From: a virus | IMG/VR virus record: IMGVR_UViG_3300030098_000469 | Coordinates: 1 to 41,509 of that record | Length of the DNA stretch: 41,509 nt | Direction: 5' to 3' (one strand) | Part shown: one piece after another, positions 5,734 through 41,507 of the stretch | How positions within the stretch are numbered: the stretch's first letter is position 1 | Layout: every line of letters starts with the position of its first letter | The notes under the pieces: generated by a model | Told to the model about the DNA's origin: nothing | The model's input: the letters and a program-made list of their open reading frames with translations, nothing else | Databases searched by the model: none | Position numbers and translations under genes: made by a program

Positions 5734-6730
5734 GTTCGCCAAGTATGGATGGACTTTATCCGAGGCTAACTTAAATACTCTACCAGATACAGCCCCTGAG
5801 GGTGGCAAACGTCTAGCAGAGTGGTTGACCCTTGAAGGTAGGAGATCGTCACTTGTTGAGTGGCTTGGTCACTGTGGTGATGACTCACGTATACATGGTA
5901 GCTTCACACATATTGGAGCATGGACAGGTAGGATGGCACACAGAAATCCTAACCAAGCTAACATCCCTGCACAGTTTCATGGTACAGCTAAGACTGCTGT
6001 TGAGAAAGTTAAGGACAGATACGATGGTCAGATGCGTGAGCTATGGTGTGTACCTAAAGGTTGTTACTTGGTAGGTACAGATGCTGAGGGTATTCAGTTA
6101 CGTGTGCTTGCACACCTGATGAAGTCAGAGGAATACGTACACGCTATCGTGTCAGGTAAGAAGGAAGACGAGACAGACATACACAACCTCAATCGTAAGG
6201 CTCTAGGTATGTCACACGTAACGAGAGACATGGCTAAGACTTTTATCTATGCGTTCCTACTCGGAGCAGGTAATGCCAAGGTAGCAAAGATACTCAAGGT
6301 CAATCAGAAAGAAGCAACTCAAGCAGTTGAGAACTTCATGCAATCAATTCAAGGGCTTGCTAATCTAAAGAAGAAAGTCATACCACACATAGCAAAGCGT
6401 GGTTGGTTCAAGGGTCTTGATGGACGTAGGGTTGTAGTACCCTCAGAACATAAGACACTGGCAGGTATGCTTCAGAATGGTGAGTCAACAATAATGAAAC
6501 ACGCAGCACTTGACTGGGTACACAAAGCCAAGAGACAATGGATAGACTTCAAGCTAGTCACTTGGCCTCACGATGAATGGCAAACAGAAGTGAGAGGACA
6601 GATGAAAGATGCTGAGTTACTAGGTGACATACAAAGACAATCTATTGTTGACATCGGTAAAAAACTTGCTATAATGTGCCCACTAGCAGGATCGACAGAC
6701 ATAGGATACAACTGGAAGGATACTCATTGA
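5705..6730 (+). CDS. DNA polymerase A, polymerase domain
   Basis: 341 residues covering thumb, palm and fingers of a T7-type family A polymerase. Motif A is GTDAEGIQLR (D126). Motif B is RDMAKTFIYAFLLGAG (R174, K178, Y182). Motif C is HDE (289-291). The terminal His after NWKDT matches the conserved C-terminal His of T7 polymerase. Tyr occupies the E. coli 762 position, while Leu186 replaces the usual Tyr of position 766. The ORF overlaps the exonuclease ORF by 29 bases in the +1 frame. A weak purine-rich SD (AAAACAAAAGGG) precedes ATG 5705, so independent translation is possible. Confidence 0.93.
   Translation: MKENKDRGAKFAKYGWTLSEANLNTLPDTAPEGGKRLAEWLTLEGRRSSLVEWLGHCGDDSRIHGSFTHIGAWTGRMAHRNPNQANIPAQFHGTAKTAVEKVKDRYDGQMRELWCVPKGCYLVGTDAEGIQLRVLAHLMKSEEYVHAIVSGKKEDETDIHNLNRKALGMSHVTRDMAKTFIYAFLLGAGNAKVAKILKVNQKEATQAVENFMQSIQGLANLKKKVIPHIAKRGWFKGLDGRRVVVPSEHKTLAGMLQNGESTIMKHAALDWVHKAKRQWIDFKLVTWPHDEWQTEVRGQMKDAELLGDIQRQSIVDIGKKLAIMCPLAGSTDIGYNWKDTH
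6648..6675 (+). promoter_or_regulatory. perfect-hexamer sigma70 promoter inside the polymerase gene
   Basis: TTGACA (6648-6653), a 16-base spacer, then TATAAT (6670-6675), all within the last codons of the polymerase ORF. Predicted start is near 6682, about 150 bases before the SSB-like gene. Together with the terminator at 7345-7370 it would give a short transcript for the small membrane peptide and SSB-like gene. Sequence match only; no expression data. Confidence 0.65.
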
Positions 6731-6831
6731 TAGGAATTTTACTTTTAGCATTGTCACCTGTAATTTATGTCTTGACAATCGAGTTATTAGTTGTTATGTT
6801 CAACCATATTGCAAACCAAGAAAAGGAGTAA
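6727..6831 (+). CDS. 34-residue single-TM peptide, TTG start
   Basis: A short ORF starting with TTG in a TTGA overlap with the polymerase stop and preceded by the strong SD GGAAGGA about eight bases upstream. The product is one hydrophobic helix (IGILLLALSPVIYVLTIELL) with a short polar tail. It ends in the AAAAGGAG that serves the next gene. Unknown function. The coupled start and good SD favour a real gene; the unusual start codon and small size leave doubt. Confidence 0.5.
   Translation: MIGILLLALSPVIYVLTIELLVVMFNHIANQEKE
6772..6800 (+). promoter_or_regulatory. second candidate promoter for the SSB-like gene
   Basis: TTGACA (6772-6777), 17-base spacer, TATGTT (6795-6800; four of six match the -10). 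Predicted start near 6807, just before the SD at 6822-6828. Weaker than the site at 6648 and may be chance. Confidence 0.35.
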
Positions 6832-6835
6832 AGCA

Positions 6836-7327
6836 TTGGCTGATAAACCAAAAACAAAATGGGGCGAGTATAATGGTCAGTTATACTACGCTCGTATCTT
6901 CAAAGATAACATGGACGATTCGGACTACCATGACAAAACTCAAGGTCAGTTCAACGTAGTCTTTGTTCCTGATGAAGATGAATCAATAAGTGATATGTTG
7001 TCCAAGGGTTTTCCTGAAACATCTATGGGTAACAAGATGATCAAACCTATTGATGCTGCTGAAGGACGTATGGGTATGAAACTCAAACGCCCTAACGTAC
7101 ACCCATCTGGTATTGATGACTTCGGTGGTGCACCTAAGGTAACTCATGGCCTAACTAACAAGGCTTGGGATTACATCGAAGACGGTGCTCTAGGTAATGG
7201 CACTAAAGCACGTGTCAAGATTTCTATCTACGGTGAGGGGTCAACAGCCTCAGTTAGATTAGAAAAGGTTGGTATCCTCGAACACGTACCGTTTGAAGAG
7301 ATTGCTGCTGCGGAAGATCGTTGGTAG
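6836..7327 (+). CDS. ssDNA-binding protein (T7 gp2.5-like role)
   Basis: 163 residues using a TTG start at 6836, chosen because AAAGGAG (6822-6828) lies seven bases upstream and the protein then begins MADKPKTKWGEYNG. Upstream TTG codons in the frame have no SD. Mixed beta sequence with aromatic residues, an acidic C-terminal tail ending in an aromatic residue (EIAAAEDRW) as in gp2.5-type SSBs, and location between polymerase and exonuclease all suggest it coats single strands at the fork. It has its own promoter candidates upstream and an intrinsic terminator directly downstream, implying high separate expression. No diagnostic motif, so the assignment is by context and tail. Confidence 0.7.
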   Translation: MADKPKTKWGEYNGQLYYARIFKDNMDDSDYHDKTQGQFNVVFVPDEDESISDMLSKGFPETSMGNKMIKPIDAAEGRMGMKLKRPNVHPSGIDDFGGAPKVTHGLTNKAWDYIEDGALGNGTKARVKISIYGEGSTASVRLEKVGILEHVPFEEIAAAEDRW

Positions 7328-7344
7328 TTTTGTCCCCCCTAACT

Positions 7345-7370
7345 GGCAGGGCTTCGGCCCTGTCTTTTTT
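7345..7370 (+). terminator. intrinsic terminator after SSB-like gene
   Basis: GGCAGGGC-TTCG-GCCCTGTC forms an 8-bp stem (one G-U) with a UUCG tetraloop followed by six T. A textbook rho-independent terminator 17 bases after the SSB stop. Genes downstream need read-through or their own promoter. Confidence 0.93.
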
Positions 7371-39735: not shown

Positions 39736-40086
39736 TTAGAAACTTAACTTTGCACCAACTGTAATATCACCAAAATTAAAGTCTTCATCTGAAGATACTT
39801 TGGTGTAGGTTGTTATACCTTTCCATACATATTCAGCTTTCCAGTCAACACCATTAAAGATGTCACCGTTGTTTAGGTCTAGTACATCTATAGTTGTTTC
39901 AGCAGTAAAAGAAGCTCCGTATGCACCTAAACCCATAGAAGGTGTTACGTCTAGTGTCCAAGTTTCTTTACCTGTTGTGTATGTTAGTTCTGTGTCAGCA
40001 CCAATAGATAAACCGTAGCCTATATCCATAGCCGTTGCTGATGTTGCCATAGTTGCAAAAGCAACTGGAAGTAATAGTTTTTTCAT
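39736..40086 (-). CDS. secreted outer-membrane-like protein, first late gene
   Basis: 116 residues with a clear signal peptide (MKKLLLPVAFATMATSATA, cleavage about residue 19). The mature part reads as alternating beta strands (IGYGLSIGADTELTYTTG; TWTLDVTPSMGLGAYGASF) and ends in GAKLSF, the C-terminal Phe of outer-membrane beta barrels. It would go to the host outer membrane. As first gene behind the late promoter it could block superinfection or alter the envelope, but that is inference. Confidence 0.8.
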   Translation of the reverse strand: MKKLLLPVAFATMATSATAMDIGYGLSIGADTELTYTTGKETWTLDVTPSMGLGAYGASFTAETTIDVLDLNNGDIFNGVDWKAEYVWKGITTYTKVSSDEDFNFGDITVGAKLSF

Positions 40087-40129
40087 GTTATTTTCCCTAC
40101 AAACACTTTATTTTAGTTACACAATTTAA

Positions 40130-40158
40130 AGTATACCACAGGACAAAACTAGTGTCAA
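40130..40158 (-). promoter_or_regulatory. late promoter, leftward sigma70 consensus
   Basis: Minus strand TTGACA (40153-40158), 17-base spacer, TATACT (40130-40135), with a TG one base upstream of the -10 (extended -10). Start expected near 40123; the first late gene begins at 40086 with AGGGA as SD. AT-rich sequence upstream may act as an UP element shared with the rightward promoter. Confidence 0.85.
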
Positions 40159-40195
40159 CAGTAAAAATAAATATTTTTTATTTTATCCAAAAACC

Positions 40196-40224
40196 TTGAC
40201 AGGTGGTGATATTAGTGGTATAAT
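40196..40224 (+). promoter_or_regulatory. rightward sigma70 promoter, perfect consensus
   Basis: TTGACA (40196-40201), 17-base spacer, TATAAT (40219-40224), and TG at 40216-40217 giving an extended -10 as well. This is as strong as a host-type promoter can look by sequence. Start expected near 40231. It is back to back with the late promoter, 37 bases separating the -35 boxes. Confidence 0.92.
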
Positions 40225-40230
40225 AAATTA

Positions 40231-40339
40231 TCCCTTGGGGATGGGCTATAGTATCTAATACTATACGTAATACATCTGCACCATCACCAATATTATATCT
40301 TTGTCAGCCTACTTGGGTAAAAACCTAGGTAGGCTTTTT
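40231..40339 (+). ncRNA. putative phage small RNA of about 109 nt (or attenuated leader)
   Basis: Bounded by the perfect promoter at 40196 and the terminator at 40306. Contains no usable ORF. Foldable elements: ATCCC/GGGAT (40230-40234 with 40238-40242), a perfect 8-bp stem TATAGTAT-CTA-ATACTATA (40247-40265), an unpaired middle (40267-40305, including CACCATCACC), and the terminal hairpin. This promoter, two hairpins, open linker and terminator order is that of bacterial sRNAs. Alternatively it is an attenuated early leader that is read through under antitermination. Confidence 0.65.
40306..40339 (+). terminator. intrinsic terminator in the control region
   Basis: AGCCTACTTGGG (40306-40317) pairs with CCTAGGTAGGCT (40324-40335) through about 12 bp (two G-U pairs), loop TAAAAA, followed by TTTT. 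Very stable; located about 75 bases after the rightward start site and almost one kilobase before the first early gene. Confidence 0.9.
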
Positions 40340-40461
40340 GCATTCGTAAAAAACTTATGAGAAAATTTGTTGGCACAATGTACATACAGGCAGGTACACG
40401 CCCACCCCTGAGCTACCCTTGGCAAGATACAAGATTTTTTCTACCCTACCCTAGCAGCTTT
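40340..40461. other. non-coding stretch with C-rich tract
   Basis: No ORF with an SD. Contains a C-rich plus-strand segment (CGCCCACCCCTGAGCTACCC and CTACCCTACCCTAGC) unlike the AT-rich surroundings, and a weak promoter-like pair (TTGGCA, 17 bases, TACCCT). Nothing else supported. Confidence 0.5.
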
Positions 40462-40546
40462 TGTGATCACAAACGGATTAACTTTAGTAAAACGTGATCA
40501 CAATTTAAGTTTTCTTTAGTAATTTCGGTTGGGAAATGTGATCACA
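40462..40546. repeat. three copies of palindrome GTGATCACA (operator or iteron array)
   Basis: TGTGATCACA at 40462-40471 and 40537-40546 and CGTGATCACA at 40493-40502. All contain the self-complementary GTGATCAC. Distances between copies are 31 and 44 bases. A second motif, CTTTAGTAA, recurs between them (about 40482 and 40514), and AAACG follows two of the copies. Likely binding sites of a dimeric protein, either regulator or replication initiator. The palindrome resembles a shortened TGTGA...TCACA CRP/FNR-type site without the central spacer. Confidence 0.75.
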
Positions 40547-40639
40547 AACGCTACACCAAAGCTAAACACCTGATTTTACTGACAATGTTATGTTATAACA
40601 CTTGAGTTTTACTTAGGTCAATAATGCTTACCTTTAGTG

Positions 40640-40676
40640 TATTTTTAGTATATACATTATATATTATAATAAAGAA
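40640..40676. other. AT-rich tract next to palindrome array
   Basis: A run almost free of G/C (TTTTTAGTATATACATTATA and the following TATTATAATAAAG) about 100 bases from the palindromes. It includes a TATAAT at 40665 without a matching -35. Suits an easily melted origin element; a promoter is possible but weak. Confidence 0.4.
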
Positions 40677-41075
40677 CAAATCAGGAACATGTTACTAGAT
40701 ACTAGAACAAATACTGAACTACTAATTTGTTTTACTTTAAAAACAATAACTTATAAAATAGTTGAAAATATCTATTGCAATAAATTTCTAGCTATGCCAA
40801 ATTGATTGTATCGGAAAGATAGCCGAAACCGAAAAGCACAAGGTTAAGACCTAGCTAGGACTGAAGCACTAAGCCGACATAGACGGATAATGAAAAGACC
40901 CTCTAATAAATACTAAGACTAAAAATAAAACTTGACTAACAAAACTAAAACTGAAAGACTGAAAATACGAAAACAAACTAAATCAAGCCCTAGTGTATGG
41001 ATTTACACAAGCTGACCAAATGAACTAGACTAAGGAACTAGTAAAGCTGTCTGATGGAAGTGACGCAGGTAAACG

Positions 41076-41101
41076 GTATATAAGGCCAAAACTTTATATA
41101 C
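41076..41101 (+). other. 10-bp hairpin in leader
   Basis: GTATATAAGG (41076-41085), loop CCAAAA, CTTTATATAC (41092-41101): ten consecutive pairs with one G-U. The strongest single stem in the early leader, not followed by a U-tract, so a structural rather than terminator element. Confidence 0.8.
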
Positions 41102-41192
41102 TACAGCAACAGAAGTGTGAAAGCCCACTTTATAGAACCGTGACTTGAATCAGTCGGTCATAAGGAGAGAGTGTCTTTTTCTTGGGCACGAT

Positions 41193-41241
41193 AGCAGCTA
41201 ATCTAGGCCAACCTAGACTTAAGCTTGACTTATGGGCTGCT
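41193..41241 (+). other. three-way junction just upstream of first early gene
   Basis: AGCAGC (41193-41198) pairs with GCTGCT (41236-41241), extended by three weaker pairs. Inside are TCTAGG-CCAA-CCTAGA (41202-41217, six perfect pairs) and TAAG-CTTGA-CTTA (41219-41232). The stem ends only 34 bases before the start codon at 41275. Confidence 0.7.
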
Positions 41242-41274
41242 GTTGTGTCTTGTGAAACAGACAAGGGGTAAAAA

Positions 41275-41496
41275 ATGAAAACTTATTCTTTAAGAGACAT
41301 GTACTTTTCCGAAATTAAAAAGGTTATTGGTGATAATGAAAAACCAGTATACCATATTGAAGAAACAATAGGTGGACATGGAATAATACAAGAGTTTAAC
41401 ACTTATAAAGAAGCAGAGGAATACCTATCTTATTTAAAAGAGTTAAATACTAAAGGATACGCAACGCTTTATAAAGGAAAAGAATTGGAGGACTAA
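41275..41496 (+). CDS. first early protein, strand-helix type
   Basis: 73 residues with SD AAGGGG seven bases before the ATG; the SD lies at the foot of a small hairpin (41246-41263). The product has beta strands (PVYHIEETIGGHGIIQEF) and a helix (TYKEAEEYLSYLKELN) with a short C-terminal strand. Similar in plan to the 60-residue protein at 924. As first gene after the control region it is probably the earliest expressed; function unknown. Its last 28 codons are repeated at the left end of the window. Confidence 0.8.
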   Translation: MKTYSLRDMYFSEIKKVIGDNEKPVYHIEETIGGHGIIQEFNTYKEAEEYLSYLKELNTKGYATLYKGKELED

Positions 41497-41507
41497 CAAT
41501 GCAAATA
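41410..41507. repeat. 98-bp direct repeat of the two contig ends (right copy)
   Basis: Identical to 1-98. Bases 41508-41509 (AC) differ from positions 99-100 (CT), consistent with an end artefact or a one-base insertion at the read end. See the left copy for the interpretation as circular closure. Confidence 0.9.

Follow-up and report, generated by a model that had tools for sequence, protein, structure and literature searches.

Why does this phage keep a perfect sigma-70 promoter that points into a region (40087-41274) in which ORFs of gene size are absent? Our comparison with related phages suggests that the promoter belongs to a gene which Veravirus-like cobaviruses devote to a non-coding RNA, made by the host polymerase and most likely acting in trans, a reading to which we give roughly an even chance. 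The window, by which we mean the whole 41,509-nt stretch of DNA analysed here, is a complete and circularly mapped genome, in which bases 1-98 are repeated exactly at 41410-41507. The gene order on the plus-strand arm is primase/helicase, split family-A DNA polymerase, MazG and ribonucleotide reductase, and the minus-strand arm carries terminase, portal, capsid and fibres. The proteins, the gene order and the nearest records, which are Roseobacter phage CRP-5 and Lentibacter phage ICBM2, place the phage in the Zobellviridae, Cobavirinae, near Veravirus, and it appears to be virulent.

The outward promoter is present exactly as the sequence-only reading had described it, with a TG at -15/-14 forming the extended -10 (Table 1). 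Dinucleotide shuffling of the window gives an expectation of about 0.025 perfect promoters with a 17-nt spacer; the window itself has this one alone. To that extent it can be called the strongest promoter in the genome, with the qualification that another promoter with 12 of 12 consensus bases, having a 16-nt spacer, is found at 6648-6675. The latter opens a left-arm transcription unit of its own (6648-7364), with a gene of 178 aa at 6791-7327 and a strong UUCG-loop terminator at 7345-7364 that closes the unit. A search for a phage RNA polymerase found nothing, and carries little weight as the search's own controls were also silent. With no phage polymerase in sight, the host sigma-70 polymerase is the probable user of the outward promoter.

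Table 1. Features at the right end of the phage genome (window coordinates)
Feature	Position	Strand	Remarks
Divergent promoter of the right-arm (structural) operon, TTGACA-17-TATACT	40130-40158	-	-35 TTGACA in 32 of 32 cluster representatives
AT-rich 37-bp spacer between the back-to-back -35 hexamers	40159-40195	.	Possible shared UP element
sRNA promoter, TTGACA-N17-TATAAT, extended -10	40196-40224	+	Sequence match; 50 of the 64 distinct relatives have both hexamers exact (all 12 consensus bases), and all have the 17-nt spacer
Predicted non-coding RNA, ~110 nt	40230-40340	+	Start predicted 6-7 nt past the -10; predicted length 106-270 nt in relatives, except two divergent units
5' hairpin, ATCCC-TTG-GGGAT	40230-40242	+	Hairpin here in most relatives, with varying sequence; covarying pairs in clade A
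Second hairpin, TATAGTAT-CTA-ATACTATA, with conserved TATAGTATA-like element	40247-40265	+	
Conserved-box position	40266-40282	+	CCAGAUnC-like in most relatives; window form CGTAATACATCTGCACC, diverged
Intrinsic terminator, 13-bp stem and U-run	40306-40339	+	Stem covariation across relatives
Conserved pre-terminus element (GAGAAAATTT...)	40340-40376	.	Putative flank of the packaging/cleavage site
Predicted direct terminal repeat (161 bp), right genome end	40377-40537	.	Motif match to the mapped ICBM2 repeat

Two hairpins with an open linker had been described in the RNA. Both hairpins are there, and in the MFE fold the first one gives way to a longer-range helix, which pairs the 5' end with part of the supposed open linker (CCAUCACCAA). 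The terminator is as strong as described and has its U-run, while we count its stem as 13 pairs instead of 12, with a 4-nt loop, in a stem-loop at 40306-40335 that is followed by TTTT(T). Compared with shuffles, the whole 111 nt has a folding z of -5.4, which is mostly due to the terminator, and of -1.75 without it. By direct reading, the longest AUG frame within the RNA has 5 codons, in line with the earlier statement that there is no ORF, and the RNA units of the relatives hold no conserved coding frame, only short frames that differ between lineages. A coding micro-ORF was rejected for this reason.

To find the unit elsewhere, loci were fetched from IMG/VR through the neighbouring gene (phrog_8035, function not known), 46 at first and then 80. 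Almost all loci long enough to include it have the outward promoter about 75-170 bp from the phrog_8035 gene; the distance is 463-466 bp in the window's own species, where there is an extra gene, and L041 has about 700 bp. On the minus strand of the window (39736-40086), an inserted gene separates phrog_8035 from the promoter pair. It encodes a protein of 116 aa, apparently with a signal peptide (MKKLLLPVAFATMATSATA...), that has no match in Pfam or PHROG. Among the relatives examined, the long promoter-to-gene distance around this gene is common to L067 and L068, which belong to the same species. The protein is possibly an outer-membrane protein, acquired as the first gene of the structural operon.

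The sequence-only reading had staked its proposal on conservation in close relatives, and the unit was found as 64 distinct units in about 33 lineages of marine cobaviruses (Zobellviridae, Cobavirinae, Veravirus and uncultured kin). A terminator was called in every unit not cut by a contig end. The call is doubtful for L043, L050 (CRP-4) and L144, which were excluded from the structure work, and the remaining units were grouped at 85% identity into the clusters that we count as lineages. The more distant CRP-4 retains the -35 and a box-like CCAGATCTAC (the conserved box being CCAGAUUCUAC), with a poor -10, TACCCT. In Siovirus (SIO1, ICBM1, P12053L) both the RNA unit and the outward promoter are absent. 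When 2.9 million viral contigs were scanned, the box pattern was confined to this phage group. In viral contigs the exact promoter-plus-stem pattern of the window and a fixed 5'-hairpin pattern gave no matches, because the hairpin and stem sequences vary while the pairing persists. Insertions leave the unit whole: the body of L068 contains a 43-nt insertion with both ends intact and is elsewhere near-identical to the window, and in L129 an ORF of about 700 nt is inserted between the terminator and the terminal repeat with the RNA unit undamaged. This ORF (L129 2082-2780) encodes 232 aa and looks by eye like an HNH endonuclease; L043 may carry a similar insertion at the same place.

A covariation check, also proposed earlier, was carried out on 21 terminators aligned with MAFFT. 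The stem cells are paired in 97.6% of cases, of which some excess is built in as the terminators were selected as hairpins, and there are 41 double changes against 14.8 in shuffled alignments, pair-type swaps not being favoured by that selection. Against 0.288 in shuffles, the covariation score was 0.654, a value that none of 500 shuffles and no slid control attained. At the other end, the first 30 nt of the RNA have a mean folding z of -1.54 against -0.11 in control windows, and pair swaps occur in the 5' stem of clade A. Identity among near relatives, taken over nine groups, is 0.95 for the 5' hairpin, 0.95 for the terminator and 0.90 for the promoter, followed by 0.84 for the pre-terminator stretch with the box, 0.74 for the body and 0.69 for the flanks. 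The RNA bodies are also enriched in 6-base palindromes, with 134 against 78 +/- 8 in shuffles.

As the 5' hairpin, the terminator and, more weakly, the box are conserved above the flanks, selection acts on parts of the RNA and not on the promoter alone. We think it very probable that an RNA is made from the unit and that its sequence or its structure has a role. Some relatives are imperfect, such as CRP-4 with its aberrant -10, as a chance or remnant promoter-terminator pair without function could be; conservation and covariation over so many lineages refute this at the sequence level and leave it scarcely any probability. Together with the promoter match, the same conservation bears out the earlier view of an independently promoted, terminated and non-coding unit.

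Where the unit lies is the next part of the answer. The 159-bp direct terminal repeats of ICBM2 were mapped from PacBio reads (PMC6775973). This repeat starts with ATTGTACATACAGCAGG and ends with GGGGAAAT. The window has both motifs, at 40377 and 40531-40537, and most relatives have them in the equivalent position. By homology with ICBM2, some 40 nt are predicted to separate the RNA gene, which points outward, from the repeat at the right end of the packaged genome. The early genes, which come next in the circular map, would then lie at the left end of the linear molecule. Many units have 40-46 nt between terminator and repeat motif, the others 52-106 nt. Since the terminator stops short of the repeat, RNA polymerase would also be kept off the predicted packaging site. 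In or at the predicted terminal repeat (within 40462-40546) there are two perfect TGTGATCACA palindromes, at 40462 and 40537, and a TGATCA at 40495, and three copies of the TGTGATCACA motif are found in the terminal repeat of L004. For Veravirus-like metagenome-assembled genomes, the RNA unit can serve as a sequence marker of the right end. If the DNA enters the cell left end first, as in T7, the RNA promoter would enter last, and the RNA may then not be the early one that the sequence-only reading supposed.

In other phages, the phi29 pRNA is transcribed near the genome end and T7 phiOR is directed at the right end. The fixed place and the outward direction beside the terminal repeat would likewise suit an RNA that, itself or through its synthesis toward the terminus, serves right-end replication priming, concatemer processing or packaging, either as a host-polymerase counterpart of phiOR or as a pRNA-like cofactor. 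The lambda OOP promoter gives some precedent, as it matters for replication though the OOP RNA is not the primer (PMC12197685). We regard such a role as improbable here, because Siovirus relatives with the same terminal-repeat layout do without the unit, the terminator falls short of the repeat and a structural motor RNA would not be expected to have so fast-evolving a body.

The predicted genome end also bears on the alternative in the sequence-only reading, a leader from which the early genes, about 1 kb downstream, would be reached only by antitermination. This end, at 40377-40537, lies between the RNA unit and the early genes, so the leader reading does not work on infecting DNA: in the linear virion molecule the early genes occupy the other end, and infection cannot be started in this way. 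Only concatemers could allow it, by antiterminated read-through (lambda PR'/6S-Q-like or HK022 put-like) across their junctions into the left-arm early genes. For this modified form it can be said that the perfect promoter and early terminator resemble PR'-6S-tR', that a TATAGT element occurs about 18-25 nt into the transcript and that the best sigma-70 promoter of the window's early genes (9.5) is not above chance (shuffle mean 9.7). It nevertheless seems very unlikely to us: several clades have TTGACA-18-TATnTT about 285-370 nt past the start of the terminal repeat, ahead of the early genes, the ORF inserted after the terminator in L129 runs on the opposite strand, toward the terminator, and no antiterminator was recognised among the scanned window proteins, where many early proteins are without a family. 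The early genes have a long leader of their own (window 40810-41270; NC_048671 480-740), whose start is CATCGG-like and conserved in Veravirus and Siovirus.

On its other side, the outward promoter stands back to back with the promoter of the structural operon, whose -10 varies among the 32 representatives. The divergent pair with its AT-rich shared spacer is present in all examined lineages. The spacers between the -35 hexamers are about 80% A+T, and their lengths cluster near 37, 49 and 59 bp, with a period of about 11 (p ~5e-4 against uniform lengths, with shared ancestry ignored), which makes a helical phasing of the two promoters possible, as if the face of the helix mattered. The clustered spacings and the A+T-rich spacer support a coupling of the promoters. 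They are the main reason why we keep an explanation in which the act of transcription matters and not the RNA: the outward promoter would compete for or hand over polymerase or alter supercoiling, thereby timing the late genes, and the terminator would merely shield the packaging site from RNA polymerase. The short distance at which transcription is halted before the terminal-repeat motif in many units fits this explanation, and so does Siovirus (ICBM1, P12053L, SIO1), which is without the RNA promoter and has a perfect TTGACA-17-TATAAT as its inward structural promoter, the reverse of the situation in Veravirus. As this leaves the conservation of the 5' hairpin and the box above the flanks unexplained, we consider it unlikely, but worth keeping in view.

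We come back to the RNA as a regulator or decoy acting in trans, for which we see about equal chances of being right and wrong. The proposal starts from the promoter, the 5' hairpin, the drifting body, the box, the covarying terminator, the fixed position and the lack of a conserved ORF, which are read directly from the sequences, and the steps of transcription, expression time, stability, trans action and partner are put forward conditionally. Once the right end is in the cell, the host sigma-70 RNA polymerase would transcribe from it a stable RNA, about 110 nt long and protected by its 5' hairpin. The terminator would end the RNA and keep transcription from entering the terminal repeat. Action in trans would go through the single-stranded stretch and the box before the terminator, and the partner may be a host RNA, by pairing, or a host or phage RNA-binding protein, by titration. 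Two points speak against this reading. The body changes at nearly the rate of the flanks, and the box of the window has diverged. In addition, the strict synteny beside the predicted genome end would equally fit a local, cis-acting role.

For a phage mRNA as target, we compared duplex energies ortholog by ortholog for 36 gene groups in up to 13 genomes, and none survives correction for 36 tests. The best duplexes, with t of about -3.1, were those with thyX and the phrog_8035 gene, and these were partly seen with the RNAs of other phages as well. Exact antisense matches to phage genes are 11-14 nt long, scattered and in no case shared. As regards integrated or host copies, the neighbouring gene is encoded by no GTDB genome.

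The RNA unit matches no Rfam family at the gathering score, including pRNA, for which likeness was checked through Rfam only. Matches to isrG (19-37 bits, with a cut-off of 100) were rejected, as they lie outside the unit and are probably fibre-gene sequence. No publication was found that describes the unit or a non-coding RNA in marine roseophages, and it appears to be an undescribed RNA family at an unusual place. Virulent phages have few known non-coding RNAs. In this case a near-perfect promoter is kept across a widespread group of marine phages, beside the predicted packaging end, while the body of the RNA drifts. As ICBM2 and CRP-5 are in culture with their hosts (Lentibacter SH36 and strain FZCC0040), tests of expression, deletion and targets are practical; the RNA is predicted to be about 255 nt long in ICBM2 and about 205 nt in CRP-5. 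In the cobavirus paper, terminal repeats and a central bidirectional terminator were reported, and the word 'promoter' is absent from its text (PMC6775973).

Several known phage RNAs can be compared with this unit. The lambda 6S RNA of PR'-tR' has a consensus promoter, a terminator 100-200 nt on and a -10-like element in the first transcribed bases. The phage RNA here shares the consensus promoter, the terminator and possibly the early -10-like element, but no Q homologue was recognised among the scanned proteins and only the genome end follows on the virion DNA. The phi29 pRNA, a non-coding RNA of 100-200 nt, is similar in size and is also made near the genome end; in contrast to it, the RNA described here occurs with terminal repeats and a T7-like terminase, is without an Rfam match and has a poorly conserved body. 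In the HK022 put RNA, too, a phage transcript begins with hairpins (PMC9378689), but put prevents termination in cis, whereas here a conserved terminator comes at once. Phage-encoded RNAs that run from a promoter to a terminator are already known as a kind (PMC12197685). Among these, lambda OOP is similarly short, intrinsically terminated, made from its own promoter and located in a phage control region, and its promoter matters for replication (PMC12197685); OOP is antisense to cII, whereas the RNA described here is antisense to no gene, lies at the predicted genome end and belongs to an apparently virulent phage. Comparable to the trans-acting role that we propose are PreS of lambda and VpdS of VP882, phage sRNAs whose targets are mRNAs of the host or the phage (PMC12197685); the phages in these examples are temperate and infect enterobacteria and Vibrio.
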